Shown in pieces: positions 1,210-12,753 of a stretch of 64,000 nucleotides of DNA. The notes under the pieces were generated by a model. It made no database searches. It was not told the DNA's origin and was given only the letters and a program-made list of their open reading frames with translations. The DNA is from Gammaproteobacteria bacterium RIFOXYD12_FULL_61_37 (GTDB lineage Bacteria; Pseudomonadota; Gammaproteobacteria; Chromatiales; Chromatiaceae). The stretch's first letter is position 1. Every line of letters begins with the position of its first letter. Made by a program: the position numbers and the translations under genes. The DNA is taken from the NCBI GenBank assembly GCA_001801995.1, contig MGZB01000016.1:62001-126000 (forward strand). The letters are read 5' to 3'.

Positions 1210-2844
1210 TCAATGGCTCGTCCCCTCGGAGCGAGTGATTTTGTTGTGGACGTTATATTTGCCGGAGGGCTTGACCATGGGCAGGCGCTTTACCTCTTTC
1301 AGGCTGTTTGCGTCGTAGATCACTACCGCGCCGTCCATCTCCCAGATGCTCAAGAGAGCATGGCGCCCATCCTTGTCGAACTCTACATGGGCAGCGGTCT
1401 TGCCCGGTTCGGGGCGAAGGGTATCGACGATCTTCAGCTTCTGCTTGTCGATGATATGCACGGCATCCTTGCTGGTGCCCAGGGAAACATCCGCCCAGGC
1501 GTAGGGGGAATTTTCGTGGCTGCGCATGAAAAAGCCGGGACCCAGGGTCTTCAGCTCCTTGATGACCTTCCATTTCCGCATGTCGATGATGGAAATCGTG
1601 CTTTCCTTGAGGTTGGGGGTTGCCATGACGCGGTTCCCCTTGTAGTTCCAAGTGATGCCCGATCCGAGATGCGGCATCCCCGGCAGCTTGAGCTTGTGCG
1701 TAACTCGCCCTATATCGAGGTCCACCACCTGGATTCCCCCCTGGCGCGAGGAGCCGATCAGGGTGCTGTAGTCCGGGCTGAAGAGGAAGTCATCCAGGTA
1801 GTCGCTGACCTTGATCTTCCGTATGGGAAAGGGTTCCACCTCAGTGTTCTCGCCGGAATCCTCATTGAAGTCATGCACCCAGGTACCGAATCCCTTGGGT
1901 GGGTGGTCCTGGTAGTTGATCTCCCAGACCTCGGGGAGGTCCTTGAGGGCGACCACGAAGCTGTGCCGGGGGTCGGCGGTATAGACCGCGCTGACGCGGG
2001 AACTGGGGCCTGACTCTCCCTTCACCTCGATGACCTTGATCGGACTCAGGTCCCCTGCATCCAGCAGGGTAAGGGTATGGGGGAGGTAGTTGGCGGCCAT
2101 GAGATAGCGGCCATCATCGGAGACAGCTAGGTTGCGGGTGTTGATACCAGCCCTGGTCTCGGCAACCAGTTGCAGGCTGTACATGTCGAACTTGCTGACC
2201 CAGCCGTCACGTGAAGCAAAATAGACATAACGCCCGTCAGGGGAATATTTGGGTCCGCCGTGAAGGGCGAAACGGGTCTTGAAGCGGTGGATGGGCTCGA
2301 ATTTGTCGCCATCAAGGATAGTGGCGTGATGGTCCCCCAATTCCACCACCACGAACATGTTCATGGGGTCGGCTGAGTGGACCGGCTTGGGGTGCAGCTT
2401 CTCGGGCGGAACCAGAATCTGCCGGCTGGCGGTGATTTCAGCCATGCCCCATTGGGGAATCGACGCCAGGGGGGTGTAGATAAAATCGACCAGGGACTGA
2501 ATCTGCTCGGGATTCAGCTTGTCGGCAAACTTGGGCATTTGCACCGCCGGACGGCTGTTGGCGATCACATCGGCTGCATCCGCCTTCTTCAGGCGTCCCA
2601 GGTTCTCAGGCAAGAGCGCTGGCCCCATGCCGCCAAGCCGGTCCTTGCCATGGCATTCGGCGCAGTGCCGCCGAAAGAGGTCGGCAGGGGCCGCGACAAC
2701 GGAGGGGCTCTCAGGGGCGGGTGCCGCGACGGGCTCGCCACCGCTGGGGCCTGCCTGAGCCGCTTTCGCATCCACCGGCTCTGCCCCAAGAGAGAGGGGG
2801 GAGAGAAATAGCAGCGCCAGGGGGAGATATCTCAGGTTGATCAT
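1210..2844 (-). CDS. nirN: NirN, dihydro-haem d1 dehydrogenase (cytochrome cd1-like)
   Basis: Periplasmic cd1-type protein of 544 residues that catalyses the last step of haem d1 synthesis, oxidation of dihydro-d1. A signal peptide (about 1-20) leads into a Pro/Ala linker and a c-type haem domain with CAECH at 61-65; the remainder is an eight-bladed d1-binding propeller (for example GMPHLGSGI and MRSHENSPYAWAD). It is related to NirS and NirF in this window. NirN is preferred over a second NirS because of the placement at the end of the d1 biosynthesis operon and the greater similarity of the other cd1 protein (10262-11938) to NirS. Its ATG overlaps the stop of the upstream cytochrome gene (ATGA), so the two are translationally coupled. 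Confidence 0.85.
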   Translation of the reverse strand: MINLRYLPLALLFLSPLSLGAEPVDAKAAQAGPSGGEPVAAPAPESPSVVAAPADLFRRHCAECHGKDRLGGMGPALLPENLGRLKKADAADVIANSRPAVQMPKFADKLNPEQIQSLVDFIYTPLASIPQWGMAEITASRQILVPPEKLHPKPVHSADPMNMFVVVELGDHHATILDGDKFEPIHRFKTRFALHGGPKYSPDGRYVYFASRDGWVSKFDMYSLQLVAETRAGINTRNLAVSDDGRYLMAANYLPHTLTLLDAGDLSPIKVIEVKGESGPSSRVSAVYTADPRHSFVVALKDLPEVWEINYQDHPPKGFGTWVHDFNEDSGENTEVEPFPIRKIKVSDYLDDFLFSPDYSTLIGSSRQGGIQVVDLDIGRVTHKLKLPGMPHLGSGITWNYKGNRVMATPNLKESTISIIDMRKWKVIKELKTLGPGFFMRSHENSPYAWADVSLGTSKDAVHIIDKQKLKIVDTLRPEPGKTAAHVEFDKDGRHALLSIWEMDGAVVIYDANSLKEVKRLPMVKPSGKYNVHNKITRSEGTSH

Positions 2845-3314
2845 GGTTGCTCCGCTTCGATGCGATAGGCTGCGTGACAGGCGACGCAGTTGCTCATGAC
2901 GCGGGCAAGGTCGAGCTGCGCCTGCTGCGGGTCTCCCATCTGTTCCGCGTTGAGCGCCAGTTGGTCAAATTGCCGGTGGGTATCCAGCCCCAGTGACTTG
3001 AAGGCCAATGGCAACTTGCCCATGAGGGAGGCCGGCACCCCTTGCTGGGCAGTCGCGCCGACCCCACGCGCCGCCCGCGCAATGGCGGCCGGGTCGCTTT
3101 TGGTGCCGCCCTCGACGACGCCCTGGGCCGCAGCAAGGAAGGAGCGCATCTCGGCCAGGACCAGATTGCGTTCCGCCGGGGTCAGCAGGATGGCGGTACG
3201 CCCATCCTCCGAGGGCCGGGTCTTGCCCTGGATCAGGAAGGTATAGGCCAGCACAAGGGTAGTGATCAAAAAAAAGACCGCAAGGCCCCAGCCAAGCCGG
3301 CATTTACCCGTCAT
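2841..3314 (-). CDS. membrane-anchored small cytochrome c in the nir operon
   Basis: A 157-residue protein with one N-terminal membrane segment (about residues 8-28), a helical domain and a single CVACH haem site close to the C-terminus. The C-terminal haem position is the layout of cytochrome c'/c556-type four-helix proteins rather than class I cytochromes. It overlaps nirJ upstream and nirN downstream by four bases each, with a GAGGAG ribosome site six bases before the ATG, so it is an integral operon member. A role in electron transfer to or from NirN, or in NO binding as in cytochrome c', is inference. I do not know an established gene symbol. Confidence 0.75.
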   Translation of the reverse strand: MTGKCRLGWGLAVFFLITTLVLAYTFLIQGKTRPSEDGRTAILLTPAERNLVLAEMRSFLAAAQGVVEGGTKSDPAAIARAARGVGATAQQGVPASLMGKLPLAFKSLGLDTHRQFDQLALNAEQMGDPQQAQLDLARVMSNCVACHAAYRIEAEQP

Positions 3315-4507
3315 CGGGAACTCCTCTTTTTCAACAAGGGTGTGTGCTCATTATTCTTACCGATCAAACCGATTTCCTCGTCGGTCAGATAGCAGCCCGG
3401 ATCTTCAGCCCAGGGGTTACCCGTCAGTTGCCAGGCACGGGTCCGGCTGTTTCCGCCGCAGATGTCCCGATAACCACATTGGGCGCACCTCCCCTCCACC
3501 GGGCGGTGCTTTCTCTTCAAGCCCGCCATAAGCGGATCGCTCTCGTCCCGCCAGATGGAGGAAAAGGGCCGGTCGCGCACGTTGCCGAGATTATAATCCC
3601 ACCACATGGTATCTGGATGAACATTACCCAGATTATCGATATTGGCCACATGGACCCCGGAGGCGTTGCCACCCCAGCGCCGCAGCATGGGGAGCAATTT
3701 GGCCTCCCTGTCGGGCAGGTTCCTCCTGATCCAATGGAGCAGGAAAACCCCGTCGGCGTCGTTGTTGCCGGTGACGAACTCCTTGGGCCTGCCGCGCCTT
3801 ATGCTGTTCCAGCAGCTCTCGATCAGCAGGTCCATGGCCAGGCGGGTGACGCGGAAATGGGCATCGCCAGCGCGATTCTTGTTGCCGCGCCCGGCGTAAT
3901 TGAGGTGCGAAAGGTAAAATTTGTCGATCCGCTCAGCCTCCATCAAGCGCAGAAGTCCGGGCAAGTCCGCCGCGTTCTCAGCCGTCAGGGTGAAACGGAT
4001 GCCGACCTTGACTCCCGCCTCCCGGCACAACCGGATTCCGCGCAGGGATTCGTCGAACGCCCCCTCGCGGCGGCGGAAGCGGTCGTGGGTCCCGGCGATG
4101 CCATCCAGGCTGATGCCGACGTAATCGTAGCCCACGGAGGCAATCTCGCCGATGTTGTCTTCTGAGATCAGAGTCCCGTTGGTGGAGAGGGCTGTGTAGA
4201 AACCCATCGCCTTGGACCGGCGCGAGATGTCGAAGATATCGGGCCGCATCAGGGGCTCCCCGCCGGAGAGGATCAGCACCGGTACGCCGAATGCCTTGAG
4301 ATCCTCCATGACACTCCCCACCTCCTCGCCGCTCAATTCGCCCGCGAAGGTCTTGTCGGCCGAGGTGGAGTAACAATGCTTACAGGTCAGATTGCAGCGC
4401 CGGATCAGGTTCCAGATCACCACCGGCCCACTTGGGGGTGCTACCTGCGGACGCATGCCCTCCGGACCATCCGCGAGGGCCTTGAGAAATCGGGTCAGGC
4501 GGAACAT
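3311..4507 (-). CDS. nirJ: NirJ, radical SAM enzyme of haem d1 synthesis
   Basis: Cytoplasmic radical SAM protein of 398 residues. The CNLTCKHC motif near residue 39 supplies the SAM-binding [4Fe-4S] cluster; the LSGGEPLMRPD segment is the SAM-contact region; a C-terminal SPASM-type domain has CAQCGYRDICGGNSRTRAW followed by a late Cys (DPGCYL). NirJ removes the two propionate side chains from didecarboxysirohaem and installs the oxo groups on the d1 ring. The start has GAGGAG six bases upstream. It lies ten bases after nirDL and overlaps the next gene, consistent with one transcript. Confidence 0.9.
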   Translation of the reverse strand: MFRLTRFLKALADGPEGMRPQVAPPSGPVVIWNLIRRCNLTCKHCYSTSADKTFAGELSGEEVGSVMEDLKAFGVPVLILSGGEPLMRPDIFDISRRSKAMGFYTALSTNGTLISEDNIGEIASVGYDYVGISLDGIAGTHDRFRRREGAFDESLRGIRLCREAGVKVGIRFTLTAENAADLPGLLRLMEAERIDKFYLSHLNYAGRGNKNRAGDAHFRVTRLAMDLLIESCWNSIRRGRPKEFVTGNNDADGVFLLHWIRRNLPDREAKLLPMLRRWGGNASGVHVANIDNLGNVHPDTMWWDYNLGNVRDRPFSSIWRDESDPLMAGLKRKHRPVEGRCAQCGYRDICGGNSRTRAWQLTGNPWAEDPGCYLTDEEIGLIGKNNEHTPLLKKRSSR

Positions 4508-4517
4508 CGCTATCTCC

Positions 4518-5510
4518 TCAGATTCTGAGACCGCTTTTCTTCAGGATGGCTGTGCTGGAGAGGGTATCCTGGCCCCGGCAGCGGCCGCCTAGAAGGGCCG
4601 CGATCCGTTCCGCCTTCAGCCGGACCTCCTCCTGGTCCCTGCCATGCACCATGGCAAAGAGGTTGTAGGGCCAGACGCCGGGGTGACGCACCCGTTCGTA
4701 GCAATGGCTGACGAAATCGAGCGCGCCGATGGCCCGGCCCGCCTCATCAACCCATTCATCGGGGACATCCCAGACCGTCATGCCGTTGCCGCGCAGGCCA
4801 AGTCTGTAGTGGTTGGGCATGGCGCCGATCCGCCGGATGGCCCCCTTGACCAGCATCCCCCCCATGGCTTCGATCACCGTCTGGGATGTGAGTCCGATTG
4901 TCCGGGCGATCTTTTCAAAGGGGGCCTCGACCAACGGCAGCCCATCCTGGGTGGCCCGGATGATCCCGAGGCAGATATCTTCGCCTGGCTCACCCCGGCC
5001 ATCGGCAGGGGTTTCCGGCACAAGGGGCGCGGGCATGGTTTCCACTCGGCCGTCCTCGTCCAGATGGAGCCAGAGCCCCAGATAAAATTCCCGCTGCTTG
5101 GGAAAGTCATGGACCTTCAGGCCCGTCATGGCCTCGATCTCGCCGATGCACGCAGCCACCCCGCCCCTTTCTAGGCTGGAGACGACAAACCACATGTTGA
5201 GGGCGTGATCACGCCGGTAGTTGTGGGCCACCGCCGGGAGGGCATTGACCTGATCGGCGACCGCATCGAAACGCGTCTCGGGCACGGCCATGGCCGCCAG
5301 GGTCAGTTCGCCCTCGATCCGGGAGGCATCGTAGGAGGGACCGAAGCGGGTCAGCAGGCCACGTTCCAGCAGACTGCGTATCAAATCCAGAAGCTCGCTT
5401 TCGCTGGCGCCCAACTCCTCCCCCATTATCCGGTAGGGCCGCTCCACGAGCGGGACCCCACCCTGGAAACAGTTGACGAAGGCCCTCTCCAGAGGGCTCA
5501 AGACACCCAT
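4518..5510 (-). CDS. nirDL: NirDL, fused sirohaem decarboxylase subunits
   Basis: Two AsnC/Lrp-like modules in one chain of 330 residues. The N-terminal half has the NirD/G-type signature NYRRDHALNMWFV; the C-terminal half has the NirH/L-type signature CYERVRHPGVWPYNLFAMVHG. Together with NirG and NirH this complex decarboxylates sirohaem to 12,18-didecarboxysirohaem. The frame stays open upstream to 5666, but that extension overlaps nirH and lacks family character, so I start at the ATG at 5510, seven bases after the nirH stop. Fusion of NirD and NirL is known in several denitrifiers and is not itself odd. Confidence 0.85.
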   Translation of the reverse strand: MGVLSPLERAFVNCFQGGVPLVERPYRIMGEELGASESELLDLIRSLLERGLLTRFGPSYDASRIEGELTLAAMAVPETRFDAVADQVNALPAVAHNYRRDHALNMWFVVSSLERGGVAACIGEIEAMTGLKVHDFPKQREFYLGLWLHLDEDGRVETMPAPLVPETPADGRGEPGEDICLGIIRATQDGLPLVEAPFEKIARTIGLTSQTVIEAMGGMLVKGAIRRIGAMPNHYRLGLRGNGMTVWDVPDEWVDEAGRAIGALDFVSHCYERVRHPGVWPYNLFAMVHGRDQEEVRLKAERIAALLGGRCRGQDTLSSTAILKKSGLRI

Positions 5511-5517
5511 TTCGTTC

Positions 5518-6087
5518 TCATTCAGACTGCCCCGGCTCGCCGTCGAGGGAGACATAACGCGCCCCCCGCTGCTTGAAGCAGCGACGGCTGAAGAGCACCT
5601 CGTATTGCTTGTCCTGCAAGGCGCAGTGGTCCGCCATGGTCTCGATCCGCGCACGGACCTCGTCATGGCCCCGGCCGTGGATCATGGTAAAGAGGTTGTA
5701 GCGCCATTGGGGCAGGCAGCGCGGCCGCTGGTAGCAGAGGGTAACAAAGGGAAAGCGACCGAAGCAGCGGCCAATCTCGCCGACCCGCTCGTCGGGGATG
5801 TCCCAGACCACCATGGCGTTGGCCTTGTAGCCGAGCTGGCCGTGGCGCACTACCACGCCCATGCGCTTGATCAGATCGTTGTCGAACAGGAGCTGGATGC
5901 GTCCGATCACCTCCGCCTCGCAGATACCCAGCCGCTCGCCGATGAGGGCGTAGGGTCTCGCCGTCAAGGGCAAGCCCCCCTCAATGGCCTTGATCAGGGC
6001 TTTCTGGACCGGATCGTCCAGCTCGGACTGTATTTGAGGCGCCGATGCATCGCAGTCCAGCGGATTGGGATATACCTTCATGTCCAT
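5518..6087 (-). CDS. nirH: NirH-like sirohaem decarboxylase subunit
   Basis: AsnC-like protein of 189 residues with a winged-helix N-terminal module and the NirH/L-type motif QWRYNLFTMIHGRGHDEV. It has the VWDIPDERV segment shared with the C-terminal half of NirDL, marking it as the H/L paralogue. It acts with NirG and NirDL on sirohaem. The start overlaps the end of nirG by ten bases; an alternative ATG lies two codons in. The assignment H versus L rests on gene order and paralogy only. Confidence 0.8.
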   Translation of the reverse strand: MDMKVYPNPLDCDASAPQIQSELDDPVQKALIKAIEGGLPLTARPYALIGERLGICEAEVIGRIQLLFDNDLIKRMGVVVRHGQLGYKANAMVVWDIPDERVGEIGRCFGRFPFVTLCYQRPRCLPQWRYNLFTMIHGRGHDEVRARIETMADHCALQDKQYEVLFSRRCFKQRGARYVSLDGEPGQSE

Positions 6088-6545
6088 TGCAGCCGAAACC
6101 CCAGGTCGATGTGGAAGTCCTGGATCATGGGCAAATCAAGCACCTCAAGCCCCGTCCGTTCAGAAATCTCCTCCAGCACCCGATCCAGGTGCGCCCGGTT
6201 CGGCGCGGTCGCGACGAACCAGAGATTGAAATGGTGTTCTCGCTCGTAGTTGTGATTCACCTCGGGGAGGGCGCTGATCAGGGCTGCAACCTCCTCCAAT
6301 CGCTCGGGTTCGACCGCGAGTGCCGCCAAGGTGCTCACCCCGATCCGGTTGGGCGGAAAAACCGGCCCTACCCGGCTGACAAGACCAGCCTCTTGAAGCA
6401 GACGCAGCCGCTCAATCACCTCATCCTCCCCGATGCCGAGGCACTCAGCGATCCGGGCGAAGGGCCGGGGCTCCAGGGGAAAGTCCCGCTGAAAGCCGTC
6501 GAGGAGGGTCCGATCAAGCGCGGTGATTTCGTTGGACTCCCGCAT
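6078..6545 (-). CDS. nirG: NirG, sirohaem decarboxylase subunit
   Basis: AsnC-like protein of 155 residues. It has an N-terminal helix-turn-helix (residues 10-60) and the D/G-type signature NYEREHHFNLWFVAT, matching the N-terminal half of NirDL. Together nirG, nirH and the two halves of nirDL give the usual four paralogous modules. It starts eight bases after the nirF stop, in the same transcript. Confidence 0.82.
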   Translation of the reverse strand: MRESNEITALDRTLLDGFQRDFPLEPRPFARIAECLGIGEDEVIERLRLLQEAGLVSRVGPVFPPNRIGVSTLAALAVEPERLEEVAALISALPEVNHNYEREHHFNLWFVATAPNRAHLDRVLEEISERTGLEVLDLPMIQDFHIDLGFRLQWT

Positions 6546-6553
6546 CCTTCCCC

Positions 6554-7726
6554 CTAGAGACCGCCACGGTGGGCGCGTGCGGTCAGGAAGATGCCGCTCG
6601 GCTTCATGGATGCGATGACCGTGCGGCGCGCATAGCTACTCGTATCATAGACATGGAGCTGGTCCGAGTCGCGAACAGAGACCCAGACCTCCTCGCCGCG
6701 TGGCTCAAACTCCAGATGAAGCACACCCTTGCCCGGCTCCAGGGTCTGCGTAACCTTCTGGTCCAGGGTGTCGATGACTTGGATGTATTGGTTGTCGGGG
6801 AGGGCGAAGTTGACCCAGACATGGCGCCCGCTGGGTTGGCCGACGACGAATACGGGCTGGCCCTTGACTGGAATGCGCTGGACGACCTGCCAGCTCAGGG
6901 TATCCACAACCAGCACCTCATGCCGCCCAACGGCAGGGAGATAGGCCCGGTTGCCTGCAATGGCCCAGCCCTCCAGGTGGGGCATCTTGTAAACAGGCAG
7001 CTTCTCCTCCCCCTTACCGTAATCGGGCAGGATGCGCTTAACCCCGGCCTCCGGACGCCAGAGGTCCAGCAGGGCAAGCCCATCCTCGCCGAAAAGGCCG
7101 GCAATGTAATAGCGTCCGTCCGGGGTGATGATGCCGTCGTAGGGATTGCGGCCGATGTCGCGGTATTTCACGACGGCGGGCTTGGTCTTGTCGGTGAAGT
7201 CCGCCACCCATATCTCGCCCGCGTCCCAAAGACTGAAGACGAAGCGATTGCCTGGGGCATCCACCAGCCCAACCACCTTGGAGAGCTTGCCGCCGTCGTA
7301 TTCGGCTGGGATATCGGCCACCTGTTCCAGGGTGCGGGCATCGAAGACCTTGACCCCGCCTGGGGTGTAATTGGAAACCGCCACCAGAGAGCCATCCTGG
7401 GAAATGGCGCCGCCGATGCTGTTGCCGGACTGCAACACACGGGCAACGATCCTGCGTTCCAGCAGATCGACCTTGGTCAGGCCGCCGTCGCGGCCAAAGA
7501 TATAGGCAAACCGCTCGTCACGGGAGAAAACCGCAGAGGCGTGCGAAAGATCGCCAAGGCCGGGGATCTCGGCCAGAAGGCTATTGCCGCTGGTCTCGAT
7601 CAATTGCAGGCTGCCGTGCTCGCGCTCAATGACGATACCCAGGTCGCCGGTAGCGCGCGCCTCCGGCCCTTCGGCCTGAAGCACTCCGGCCCAGAAAAGG
7701 GCTGCTGCGATTAGATACAACCTCAT
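6554..7726 (-). CDS. nirF: NirF, haem d1 biosynthesis propeller protein
   Basis: A 390-residue cd1-like beta-propeller without a haem c domain, the hallmark of NirF. The frame is open to 8029, but the real start is the ATG at 7726, which overlaps the nirC stop as ATGA and begins a clear signal peptide (MRLYLIAAALFWAGVLQAEG). NirF acts in the periplasm late in d1 assembly. Some NirF proteins are lipoproteins; here no lipobox cysteine follows the signal peptide, so a soluble periplasmic form is expected. Confidence 0.85.
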   Translation of the reverse strand: MRLYLIAAALFWAGVLQAEGPEARATGDLGIVIEREHGSLQLIETSGNSLLAEIPGLGDLSHASAVFSRDERFAYIFGRDGGLTKVDLLERRIVARVLQSGNSIGGAISQDGSLVAVSNYTPGGVKVFDARTLEQVADIPAEYDGGKLSKVVGLVDAPGNRFVFSLWDAGEIWVADFTDKTKPAVVKYRDIGRNPYDGIITPDGRYYIAGLFGEDGLALLDLWRPEAGVKRILPDYGKGEEKLPVYKMPHLEGWAIAGNRAYLPAVGRHEVLVVDTLSWQVVQRIPVKGQPVFVVGQPSGRHVWVNFALPDNQYIQVIDTLDQKVTQTLEPGKGVLHLEFEPRGEEVWVSVRDSDQLHVYDTSSYARRTVIASMKPSGIFLTARAHRGGL

Positions 7727-8043
7727 GGAAAAACCCCCTCTTTCAGACCCTGTGCCAGCCAGACCGCTTCGGTCTCGCTGAGAAAGGGGAGCCAAGGCGG
7801 CATGGCCGTTCCTGGACGGCCATGTACGATGGTCATGGCGAGCTGTTCTGCCGTGAATGGCTTGAGCCGGTCTGGCGTCAGTGAGGGGCCAAGCCCCCCT
7901 TGCAGGGTCAGGCCATGACAGGAGCCGCAATCGTGCTTGACGAGATGCCTCAGCTCCTGCTGCCGCTCCGTCTCCGCCCAGGCGATGCCGCTCGGCAGTG
8001 CAAGGAGAATAGGCAGTAATCTCATGCAAACAGATCTGACCAT
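7723..8043 (-). CDS. nirC: NirC, periplasmic c-type cytochrome
   Basis: Small class I cytochrome c of about 106 residues with a signal peptide and one haem site, CGSCH at about residues 39-43, plus a downstream Met region (GTAMPPW) for the sixth ligand. NirC donates electrons to NirS or serves d1 maturation in known denitrifiers. Several in-frame starts exist (8079, 8043, 8025); 8043 or 8025 put the signal peptide at the N-terminus and I use 8043. It overlaps nirF by four bases. Confidence 0.8.
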   Translation of the reverse strand: MVRSVCMRLLPILLALPSGIAWAETERQQELRHLVKHDCGSCHGLTLQGGLGPSLTPDRLKPFTAEQLAMTIVHGRPGTAMPPWLPFLSETEAVWLAQGLKEGVFP

Positions 8044-8132
8044 CACTTCCGCCCCCTCAGCCCATGTCGCTCTGAACACTCTCTCCTTTGAGCGGCCCGA
8101 AGACTTTGACCTTCATCAAGCAGTTCCGGAGG

Positions 8133-8453
8133 CTAGTCCACATGGACGGTTCCGGTCATTTCAGGGTGGGGGCCGCAATGGTAGGGGTAGACGCCGGGCG
8201 CCGGAAAGGCCTTCTCAAAGGTATCGCCCGGAAAGAGGTAGTCGGACTCCGCCTGCCCCGGAAAGAGGACGCTGTGGAACTGCCGTTTTTCCCGGTTGAC
8301 CCAGCGAATACTGTCCCCCGCCTTGATGCGCAACTCCTGCGGCTGGAAGCTGTACTTCTGCATGATGACCTCGACCGTCTCCGCCTGGGCGGCCAAGGTC
8401 ATCGACCCCAGCAGCCCGGCCACGACGAGAAGCATTATGCCTCTGGATTTCAT
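8133..8453 (-). CDS. periplasmic cupredoxin (type I copper protein)
   Basis: A 106-residue blue-copper protein with a signal peptide ending near AAQA. Copper ligands are recognisable: His in QFHSV, then Cys, His and Met in YHCGPHPEM, an arrangement of the plastocyanin/azurin superfamily. Located between the NapC-type cytochrome and nirC, it is a plausible electron carrier to NirS. A GTG at 8459 overlapping the upstream stop is an alternative start; the ATG at 8453 has AAGGGG at better spacing. It is too short for a copper nitrite reductase. Confidence 0.8.
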   Translation of the reverse strand: MKSRGIMLLVVAGLLGSMTLAAQAETVEVIMQKYSFQPQELRIKAGDSIRWVNREKRQFHSVLFPGQAESDYLFPGDTFEKAFPAPGVYPYHCGPHPEMTGTVHVD

Positions 8454-8455
8454 CC

Positions 8456-10153
8456 TCACCGCCCCTTGGCGTTGATTTCGGCCTGGTCGTTGTCCAGCCC
8501 CAGCTTGTAACCCAGGGAGACATGATGGAAACGGGCATCGGTATAGTCGTCGTGGATGGCGAATCCGAAGTTGTAGAGCACACCTGGTTCGATGCCGACA
8601 TCCCCCGGCTTGCCGGCCTTCAAGGGACGTTTGATTTCCACGGTCCAGCGACCGCCGGCCTCTGCGATGCTGGCCTGAACGCCTTGCCCGCCCGTCATGA
8701 CGCGCTGCTCCAGGACCTGACCATCCTCGACGCTGCCGTCGCTTTTCACTCGCACCAGATCCATGTAGTGCCCGGCCTTGAGGGACTCGGCAAGGGCACC
8801 GGCATCCTTGAGCTTGTCCCAGCCGCCCAGCTTGGCCCCCATGCGCCCGGCTTCTTCCACGGCGGTGCGGGATTCCTTGATGTATTTGGTGACTCCCTTG
8901 GCGAGGTCTAGCCCGGCCAGGGAGGCATCCTTCGGCGCCTCCGGCATGGAACGCAGGTCATGATGACAGGTGCCCCAGCACCCAGCCCGGTCGGCGTATT
9001 GCGGCGCATCGGTAGCCAGCATGAAGGCCAGTTTGACCGCGTGAGCCGGGTCCATCTTTCCCCCCTCCACGAAGGGCGCGGGGGTATGGGCAGTGGCTTC
9101 CCACTGGAAGCGCAGATAGAGATTGTCAGCATCGTGGGCAGCCTGCACAGCGACCGGGATGGAGCCTCGCTTGCCGGGAATGGGCGTGGGCTCCGCCTTT
9201 TCGCCGCTCACGATCTTGCGGCCCATGTCGGCGGTTTCCTTGTCGTGGCAGGTGAAGCAACGGTCACCGGCTTTGAAGGGCCGCGCCCCGCCGTGCATGG
9301 AGCCCACCAGGGTCCACTCCATGGAGGCTTGGCCCGGATAGAAGATCGTGATCTGGCGAGCCGGCGCCTTGCTCCAATCAACCCCAAGCCCTCCTGTGGC
9401 GGCTCCGGCGGTAGCGGCGGAACTGGCTGCGGGTGCAGCAGGCGCCGCAGCCACGGCAGTCTTGGCGGCTTCCGCCTCGGCCTTGGCATCGGCGGCCTTG
9501 GCCCGTTCCATGCCGGCCTTGAAGCTCTCGGGGATCGGGCGAATATAGTCAGGGTTAGGCTGAGCTAGACGCTCCAGCTCTTCGTCGGGCAAATTCTTGT
9601 GGGCGGGCTTGTGCGCTATGCCCTTGTGGCAATCGATGCAGGTATTGCCCTTCTCCATGGCGAACAAATGCTGATTGCGGGCCCTCGGTTTTTGATGCGC
9701 CGGGTCCATGGTGTCGAAGTCGTGGCAGTTGCGGCACTCACGGGAATCGGTGGACTTCATCGCCGACCAGACCCGTTGGGCCATTTCCAGGCGATGCTCG
9801 TTAAACTTCTCCGGGGTATTTACCGTCCCCATAAGCTTGTGGAATATCTCGTTGCTGGCCTTGATCTTGCGGACGATCTTGTGAATCCAGGGCCGAGGCA
9901 CATGGCAATCGGGACAGCCAGCGCGCACACCGCTACGGTTGGCATCATGGATGCTGCCCTGGTATTCGGCATAGACGTTATCCTTCATCTCGTGGCACGA
10001 GATGCAGAATTCTTTAGTGTTGGTTACCTCCAGGGTCCAGTTGAAACCACCCCAGATGATCACGCCGAACACCATGAACAGGACCGCACCCCCCACGGTG
10101 GCGCCGAACAGGGTCCTACGGGCCAAAAAACCGAATTTTGTCATGCCAATCAT
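8456..10153 (-). CDS. NapC/NirT-type multihaem cytochrome fused to an extra haem domain
   Basis: 565 residues. Residues 1-180 are a NapC/NirT quinol dehydrogenase: one membrane anchor (about 10-37) and four CX2CH sites at 50-54, 80-84, 140-144 and 172-176. An Ala/Lys-rich linker (about 215-255) leads to a second periplasmic domain with CFTCH at 299-303 and an unusual C-X3-C-H at 392-397. This domain, with its DNLYLRFQWEA and C-terminal FGFAIHDDY stretches, resembles the ethylbenzene dehydrogenase-related haem domain family. The protein probably passes electrons from menaquinol or ubiquinol to NirS or its carriers. Canonical NirT is about 200 residues, so the C-terminal 350 residues are additional. 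GGAGA lies eight bases before the ATG. Confidence 0.8.
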   Translation of the reverse strand: MIGMTKFGFLARRTLFGATVGGAVLFMVFGVIIWGGFNWTLEVTNTKEFCISCHEMKDNVYAEYQGSIHDANRSGVRAGCPDCHVPRPWIHKIVRKIKASNEIFHKLMGTVNTPEKFNEHRLEMAQRVWSAMKSTDSRECRNCHDFDTMDPAHQKPRARNQHLFAMEKGNTCIDCHKGIAHKPAHKNLPDEELERLAQPNPDYIRPIPESFKAGMERAKAADAKAEAEAAKTAVAAAPAAPAASSAATAGAATGGLGVDWSKAPARQITIFYPGQASMEWTLVGSMHGGARPFKAGDRCFTCHDKETADMGRKIVSGEKAEPTPIPGKRGSIPVAVQAAHDADNLYLRFQWEATAHTPAPFVEGGKMDPAHAVKLAFMLATDAPQYADRAGCWGTCHHDLRSMPEAPKDASLAGLDLAKGVTKYIKESRTAVEEAGRMGAKLGGWDKLKDAGALAESLKAGHYMDLVRVKSDGSVEDGQVLEQRVMTGGQGVQASIAEAGGRWTVEIKRPLKAGKPGDVGIEPGVLYNFGFAIHDDYTDARFHHVSLGYKLGLDNDQAEINAKGR

Positions 10154-10261: not shown

Positions 10262-12025
<1,764 letters not shown>

Positions 12026-12183: not shown

Positions 12184-12753
12184 ATGAAACAAAGTGTCAG
12201 CATGTTGATGTACTCACTTGCATTGGTCGTATTACTGGTCGTGGACGTTATGTTATTCGTGGCACTGGGCCTTGCTTCCCCCATCCCATGGGTGGTATTG
12301 GCCGCGATCGCCACCATTCCCTACTTCTCTTCCAGACAGGAAAAGCGCCGCTTCGTCACTTGGCATGACAGCTATTCCACGGGAATAGAGGCCATCGATA
12401 ACGATCATAAAAAGCTGCTTGGCTTGATCAACAATCTCCAGGCATCCGTCCACTACCACACGGGAGAGCAGTTCGAGCGGCAGTCCCTGAACGAGCTGAT
12501 CGATTACACCCGCTTCCATTTCGGGCGCGAGGAATCCCTGATGGAAAAGCACGGCTTTCCCGGCTTTGCTGATCACAAGCGGCAACATCATGAGATGATT
12601 CAGGAAGTGGAAAGGTTTGTAGCCGAGTACGAGAAAAAGGGTTCAGACGCGCTCGATCAGGTGGCCGAATACCTGAAGGTCTGGCTGGTGAACCACATCA
12701 ACGGCACGGACCAGGAATACAGCCCCTATCTACGGGAGAAAGGTGAGAAATAG
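12184..12753 (+). CDS. membrane-anchored bacteriohemerythrin
   Basis: 189 residues: two N-terminal hydrophobic segments (about 8-30 and 33-49), then a complete bacteriohemerythrin domain with the diiron ligand set H61, H75, H112, E116, H131, H135, H171 and D176. Hemerythrins bind O2 and can bind NO; in this setting it may deliver or sense O2/NO at the membrane. It is divergent from nirS across a shared FNR-type box and ends two bases from the convergent nirE stop. Confidence 0.85.
   Translation: MKQSVSMLMYSLALVVLLVVDVMLFVALGLASPIPWVVLAAIATIPYFSSRQEKRRFVTWHDSYSTGIEAIDNDHKKLLGLINNLQASVHYHTGEQFERQSLNELIDYTRFHFGREESLMEKHGFPGFADHKRQHHEMIQEVERFVAEYEKKGSDALDQVAEYLKVWLVNHINGTDQEYSPYLREKGEK

Follow-up and report, generated by a model that had tools for sequence, protein, structure and literature searches.

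The gene at positions 8456-10153 (minus strand) of the window, by which we mean the whole 64,000-nucleotide stretch of DNA analyzed here, encodes a 565-residue protein in which a membrane-anchored tetrahaem NapC/NirT cytochrome is joined to a C-terminal part that has an EB_dh fold and two further c-haem motifs, and that resembles NirB, NapO, and PcrO. We consider it quite likely that this protein is a fusion of NirT and NirB (NirTB), that is, a quinol dehydrogenase that would itself conduct electrons onward, toward NirS. This membrane cytochrome probably feeds electrons to NirS, the enzyme that converts nitrite to nitric oxide. Its kind is already known, in split or fused form, and the protein is largely ordinary, but one haem-attachment motif is unusual.

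The open reading frame, Pfam matches, and six c-haem motifs together define the fusion. Its N-terminal portion harbors a predicted membrane-anchor helix (residues 20-44; 10022..10096, minus strand), apparent both as a hydrophobic sequence and as a helix in the structure model, and a tetrahaem domain (residues 24-184; 9602..10084, minus strand) matching PF03264 (Cytochrom_NNT) at 240.8 bits (cut-off 24.1 bits), with the four motifs CISCH (residues 50-54), CPDCH (80-84), CRNCH (140-144), and CIDCH (172-176). These features (a match above cut-off, four CXXCH motifs, and the N-terminal helix) place this part in the NapC/NirT family at the level of Pfam; because the score against the NCBIfam model napC_nirT (TIGR02161; 261.4 bits) is below its cut-off of 310.6, we treat the protein as a fusion containing a Pfam NapC/NirT domain and do not count it as a free-standing member of that subfamily. 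The C-terminal domain (residues 259-546; 8516..9379, minus strand), here termed the O domain (and the NirT part, T), matches PF09459 (EB_dh) at 120.2 bits (cut-off 33.3 bits). It contains CFTCH (residues 299-303; 9245..9259, minus strand), the fifth c-haem motif and one kept in relatives, and CWGTCH (residues 392-397; 8963..8980, minus strand), the sixth, which has the C-X3-C-H (CX3CH) spacing. The original prediction had proposed a NapC/NirT-EB_dh fusion with two extra c-type motifs at these same residues and had called for a domain search and a structure prediction; the domain search, with both families above their Pfam cut-offs, and the fold comparison described below confirm the fusion, and the motifs are present as proposed.

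Structure models were obtained for the whole protein (mean pLDDT 76.7) and for the O domain by itself (84.1). The first match of both was EbdC (2ivf_C; Z 14.2 and 14.7, rmsd 3.9, 187 residues aligned in each) and the second NXR-C (7b04_C; Z 12.9 and 13.6), with the following rows at Z 9.5-9.6. The alignment behind the second model included three gamma-subunit rows and the sequence L177, and may therefore lean toward the gamma fold; the alignment for the first model had no gamma rows and gave nearly the same Z. The CBM9-like, dopamine beta-hydroxylase, and cellobiose dehydrogenase cytochrome domains were also considered and rejected, as their Z values (6.6-9.6) fall below those of EbdC and NXR-C. 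When solved structures were searched by sequence, the T part gave a weak match to NrfH (E 0.0039); the O profile matched NXR-C (E 0.00031), and EbdC was absent up to E 1. In a profile-profile comparison, the set of O domains matched 16 gamma sequences with a probability of 93.5% (E 2.3e-07 for one comparison), the alignment ending before the strand that carries the Lys or His discussed below. Membership in the EB_dh fold family is thus indicated by both the PF09459 match and the fold match. NirTB does not qualify as a haem b gamma subunit of the EbdC and NXR-C type, which belongs to enzymes of the DMSO reductase family: it has RFHHVS together with CX3CH, and no Lys pattern. For that type, the model TIGR03477 gave no match over its cut-off (169.85) in 398 genomes (17.7 bits for the window protein), so the gamma set was defined by weaker hits, sequence pattern, and fold family.

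The NirTB gene belongs to a nir cluster ordered as follows: nirS, NirTB, a cupredoxin, a cytochrome c (nirC place), a d1-domain protein (nirF place), three NirDL/GH-type genes, nirJ, a cytochrome c'-like gene, and a nirN-like gene. The cytochrome cd1 nitrite reductase gene nirS (10262..12010, minus strand; PF02239, Cytochrom_D1, 492 bits; working start 11938, start codon uncertain) ends at 10262, 108 bases upstream of NirTB on the same strand, in keeping with the earlier statement that NirTB directly follows it. On the other side, the small cupredoxin gene (8133..8459, minus strand; PF13473 44.5 bits and PF00127 38.7 bits, both over cut-off), encoding a candidate electron carrier, has a GTG start that overlaps the NirTB stop codon by four bases (GTGA). 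The remaining genes, all on the minus strand, encode a small c-type cytochrome (7723..8079; PF13442 46.6 bits), a haem d1-domain protein whose true start lies downstream of the listed one (6554..8029; PF02239 369.9 bits), three sirohaem decarboxylase-like proteins (4518..6545; PF17805 and PF22451 over cut-off in all three), the haem d1 biosynthesis radical SAM protein NirJ (3311..4507; TIGR04051 614.4 bits, cut-off 515.45), and a protein combining cytochrome c and haem d1 domains (1210..2844; PF02239 394.5 bits, PF13442 44.9 bits). From gene order we take the second and third genes downstream of NirTB to be nirC and nirF, and the letters D, L, G, and H for the three decarboxylase-like genes are assumed in the same way; the last gene is presumably nirN-like. 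A bacteriohaemerythrin gene (12184-12753, plus strand; NF033749 131.5 bits, cut-off 84) is divergent from nirS, and a similar gene adjoins nirS on the opposite strand in many relatives.

Some match to NirTB occurs in 60 of 92 related genomes, many of these to the NirT part only. Full fusions take two forms, T-O (as in the window) and T-O-O, with two tandem O domains. A genome-contig scan confirmed 507 loci, of which the best 80 were kept. T is fused in frame in 74 of the 80; of the other six, five begin at a contig end, and in the sixth, L108, T and O occupy different frames. A nirS gene lies directly upstream of the fused gene, on the same strand, in 68/68 loci from these best 80 of 507, in 16/16 of a second set, in 3/3 plasmid records, and in 19/19 loci from an even draw of genomes; these counts cover loci with at least 250 readable upstream bases (6, 1, 0, and 5 fused loci, respectively, had too little), and the four sets partly overlap, all but the last having been chosen for their similarity to the window. 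The plasmid records come from Ruegeria, Azospirillum brasilense Sp7, and Aliiroseovarius, so the NirTB unit also occurs in Alphaproteobacteria. The recurrence of nirS with NirTB across all four sets rules out a lone oddity of the window genome, and the link to NirS made in the original prediction is upheld by gene association, nirS being upstream in every readable fused locus examined.

The even draw comprised 369 genomes of the class Gammaproteobacteria; an O relative occurs in 43 of them, and 69 show a match to nirS (E up to 1e-60). The strong form of the O domain (27 genomes, 26 of them with E of at most 6.2e-128 and one, G288, truncated) is present in 25 of the 69 genomes with a nirS match vs. 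2 of the 300 without (Fisher p 2.7e-18, from a hand tally; the test treats genomes as independent, which is not the case). Both of the latter have the O gene near contig ends, and one shows an adjoining piece of nirS. The fusion is visible in 22 of the 25, and the remaining three (G209, G263, G288) are cut by a contig end.

In the mechanism we propose, the NirT part would be anchored in the inner membrane, oxidize quinol, and pass electrons via its four c haems into the NirB-type domain. This domain, with the fold of the gamma subunit of ethylbenzene dehydrogenase (EBDH), would bind one haem by CFTCH. A second would be bound by CX3CH at about the former haem b site, where His397 and His543 are the likely axial ligands in place of Met and Lys. 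The NirB domain would in turn reduce NirS, most likely via the small cupredoxin (in some relatives, a small c-type cytochrome) or possibly by direct contact, and the quinol pool would thereby feed nitrite reduction without the cytochrome bc1 complex. Haem occupancy, the ligands, quinol oxidation by NirTB, the order of carriers, and the bc1 bypass are all inferred here. How electrons travel from quinol to NirS is of consequence, as it decides whether nitrite reduction passes through bc1 and how nitrite and nitrate compete for electrons.

The step into NirS is where the readings diverge, and we lean, by a modest preference, toward the order quinol, NirT haems, NirB haems, small carrier, NirS, its main rival being direct contact. 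The cupredoxin gene is downstream of 95 of 127 strong-O frames and was not found downstream of the other 32 (some loci or contigs being counted twice, and eight further frames being too short to judge); it is therefore not an obligatory neighbor, although the stop codon overlap and its presence beside 95/127 frames make a mobile carrier at least as likely as direct transfer. Were the fused domain instead to contact NirS and reduce its haem c directly, with the cupredoxin serving another role or route, the constancy of nirS as a neighbor and the 32 frames without a downstream cupredoxin would be readily accommodated. The pentahaem TorC offers a precedent: like NirTB, it has a NapC-type tetrahaem part and a C-terminal haem domain, and that domain feeds one reductase. 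NirTB itself scores 235.6 bits against the TorC equivalog TIGR02162 (cut-off 478.2), the match covering residues 27-182, the NapC part. Against direct contact, the cupredoxin gene overlaps the NirTB stop and follows most frames, and in L055, L059, and L066 a small CSSCH protein begins at the gene end in its place, which fits an exchangeable carrier; we regard direct contact as a real but rather unlikely alternative.

It is improbable, in our judgment, that NirTB acts on NirS as an activator more than as its main electron donor. This role is proposed for NirT in the literature, where the available text of PMC13086519 (citing Zajicek 2004) states that NirT may catalytically activate cytochrome cd1, and the association with nirS would fit it equally. 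Yet the split systems PcrQ/PcrO and NapC/NapO, as described in the accessible part of PMC5845722, serve other reductases by electron transfer, and O genes near MtrB/PioB porin genes point to a general wire. The porin-associated cases are the separate O genes of L049, L167, and L170, near genes for MtrB/PioB outer-membrane porins, and their position suggests that the O domain may be used in extracellular electron transfer. The window genome also has a second EB_dh protein (G000:C42, L050: 6334-8422) with CX2CH and CWVTCH motifs, followed by a T-type gene with four CX2CH motifs.

The second c-haem motif of the O domain is the unusual one. Of 148 O-domain segments from relatives (non-independent, since some contigs occur twice and both tandem copies are counted), 147 carry CX3CH, which argues that the motif is not a chance feature; 147 likewise carry CX2CH, the exception (L038) being cut short by an in-frame stop. 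The CX3CH exception, L086 (10001-10963), reads CWGTSH and is either a real single-thioether variant or a metagenome assembly error. Across 66 aligned fusions His397 is invariant, and C392 and C396 are invariant or nearly so. The motif is kept in distant O relatives (30-47% identity), and L177, with 24% identity to the window domain, has neither c-haem motif.

The candidate second ligand of this haem, His543 (8525..8527, minus strand), was identified from alignments and from the co-occurrence of sequence patterns. We compared 59 distinct EB_dh-type proteins (duplicates removed) from 73 chosen loci, using His and Lys patterns that were written after viewing the sequences, so that the counts are a description and not a blind test. 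The 28 proteins with CX3CH have the pattern RxH[HYQF]xS at the last strand in 25 cases; of the remaining three, L176 is truncated where its contig ends, and L244 and L245 are of another type. The 31 proteins without CX3CH have the Lys pattern in 23 cases, the His pattern in three, and neither in five. No protein of the 73 loci combines CX3CH with the Lys pattern, or the His with the Lys pattern. Three EB_dh proteins (L177, L240, L241) lack both c-haem motifs and have the His pattern, and may bind haem b through a His; L177 also has a hydrophobic C-terminal stretch.

For comparison, the haem b of NXR-C is ligated by Met155 and Lys305, as in EBDH (PMC8387239, in the part accessible), and by analogy with these ligand types the Met of an MMG motif and the Lys of an RK motif are the putative haem ligands of the gamma sequences. 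In 14 of the 16 gamma sequences this Met place is the 20th residue from the preceding strand (the 21st in L184, the 23rd in L192), close to the position of C392; the place is occupied by MMG in 13 sequences, by MG in one, and by no Met in two. CX3CH would thus occupy about the place of the gamma Met, as judged by counting from the preceding strand and not from an alignment column: neither of two joint alignments puts the gamma MMG on CX3CH, and in them the offset between His543 and the gamma Lys is one or two columns. The assignment of the ligands therefore depends chiefly on how often the patterns co-occur. The simplest reading is that the haem site has moved from a Met/Lys haem b to a His/His haem c, with haem predicted to occupy CX3CH. 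The least probable of the alternatives we weighed, that the two cysteines of CX3CH are disulphide-linked or carry no haem, leaving the domain with a single c haem and perhaps a haem b bound non-covalently, draws on the atypical motif and on the C-terminal His pattern kept, as at a haem b site, in L177, L240, and L241, but is opposed by the conservation of His397, C392, and C396 in the 66 aligned fusions and by the dihaem description given to NapO/PcrO and NirB (in the available portions of PMC5845722 and PMC13086519, which give no method of haem counting), while the split relatives examined carry one CX2CH and one CX3CH each.

More broadly, and tentatively, with the odds close to even, the NirB/NapO/PcrO-type domain can be regarded as a covalent descendant or sister of the EBDH gamma haem site. 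CX3CH would have taken the place of Met, and His that of Lys, and a second haem in an N-terminal insert would complete a dihaem c wire. This wire would be used by several reductases, perhaps also extracellularly near MtrB/PioB, and the fused and T-O-O forms would be extended periplasmic wires paired with different NirS lineages. The suggestion that CX3CH needs special handling during maturation was not supported, since a search for the CcmF/NrfE type gave one match in the organism's own genome. With one CcmF-type haem lyase match in the genome, the site makes the proposed conversion of a haem b pocket to haem c attachment, by an atypical motif, open to a clear test.

The tandem T-O-O frames (L031, L035, L036, L037, L039, L040, L043, L045, L047, and L048) are 923-985 residues long, with eight c-haem motifs. 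Over 43 tandem loci, the two O domains of one protein are 68-90% identical (median 77%), and identity between proteins has a median of 61-62%. The first O domain is closest to its own second in just 4 of the 43 (a count blurred by repeated contigs), which speaks against simple recent duplication or conversion.

A quick NirS tree of 63 chosen rows separated 29 that are not beside a fusion (support 100), 29 divergent sequences beside a fusion (100), and five others (82); this last group, which includes the window, has nirS next to a fusion or to separate T and O genes. Some genomes, e.g., G070, have both NirS kinds. A tree of 32 T-O proteins places the window, L033, and L034 among the T-O and T-O-O proteins beside the divergent NirS (100/99), away from L052 and L169; a topology grouping the five together is weakly rejected (AU p 0.035), with L169 forming a long branch. 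As the two trees disagree, at least one re-pairing of nirS with nirTB has probably taken place. Re-pairing suggests that the pairing matters, although the linkage of neighboring genes may also explain it. In Stutzerimonas, nirT and nirB go with one NirS clade, and both they and that clade are tied to nitrite build-up with one exception strain, according to the available text of PMC13086519.

For the extra domain the best assignment is NirB, which is the dihaem cytochrome of Pseudomonas stutzeri nirSTBM; the link runs through the gene order of one relative. L169 encodes T and O separately, and its genes follow the order nirS, T, O, small cytochrome c (Cytochrom_C 47 bits; NCBIfam c551 39.6 bits, below its cut-off of 118), nirC, nirF, nirD, nirL, nirGH, and nirJ. 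This order is that of P. stutzeri nirSTBM, a region of mono-, di-, and tetrahaem proteins according to the title of Jungst 1991 as listed in PMC13086519, and on this basis we read the O domain as NirB. The fused gene, with nirS directly upstream, has its O domain in the corresponding place, and the B part has two motifs, CX2CH and CX3CH. The same source, in its accessible part, already mentions a fused NirTB in Halomonas sp. 2A, and hence the window protein is of a known kind; it also records that NirT is needed for nitrite reduction in strain ZoBell. The novelty implied by the original prediction is thereby reduced, NirT and NirB being known nirSTBM proteins and fused NirTB being in print in that source, while the fusion itself is real. 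What may be new is the CX3CH/His interpretation of the second haem, together with the tandem T-O-O form and the re-pairing of nirS with nirTB; the portions of the open-access literature consulted hold no description that we found of the first two, which is weak evidence of absence.

Set beside these known systems, NirTB shares with NirT and NirB of P. stutzeri, and with NirTB of Halomonas sp. 2A, a tetrahaem NapC/NirT cytochrome and a dihaem cytochrome encoded after nirS (PMC13086519, as far as its accessible text goes), but P. stutzeri has separate genes with nirM next, whereas in the window a single gene is followed by that for the cupredoxin. In Azospira suillum PS, PcrQ/PcrO and NapC/NapO are alike by description, each pairing a NapC/NirT quinol dehydrogenase with a cytochrome that is called dihaem and is a homolog of the EBDH gamma subunit; the perchlorate and nitrate reductases receive their electrons from these pairs, and strains without both napC and pcrQ, or without both napO and pcrO, show no anaerobic growth on nitrate or perchlorate (PMC5845722, in the part available). 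These systems differ in using two proteins for perchlorate and nitrate reductases, whereas NirTB is one protein encoded beside nirS. ImcH and some CymA homologs also have CX3CH as an atypical or putative haem motif, located next to their membrane part in the accessible text of PMC6295460, and in NirTB it lies instead in the EB_dh domain. EbdC and NXR-C have the EB_dh fold in common with the extra domain (Z 12.9-14.7), but bind a non-covalent haem b by Met and Lys, whereas the NirTB domain has CX3CH with a His, plus an extra CX2CH.
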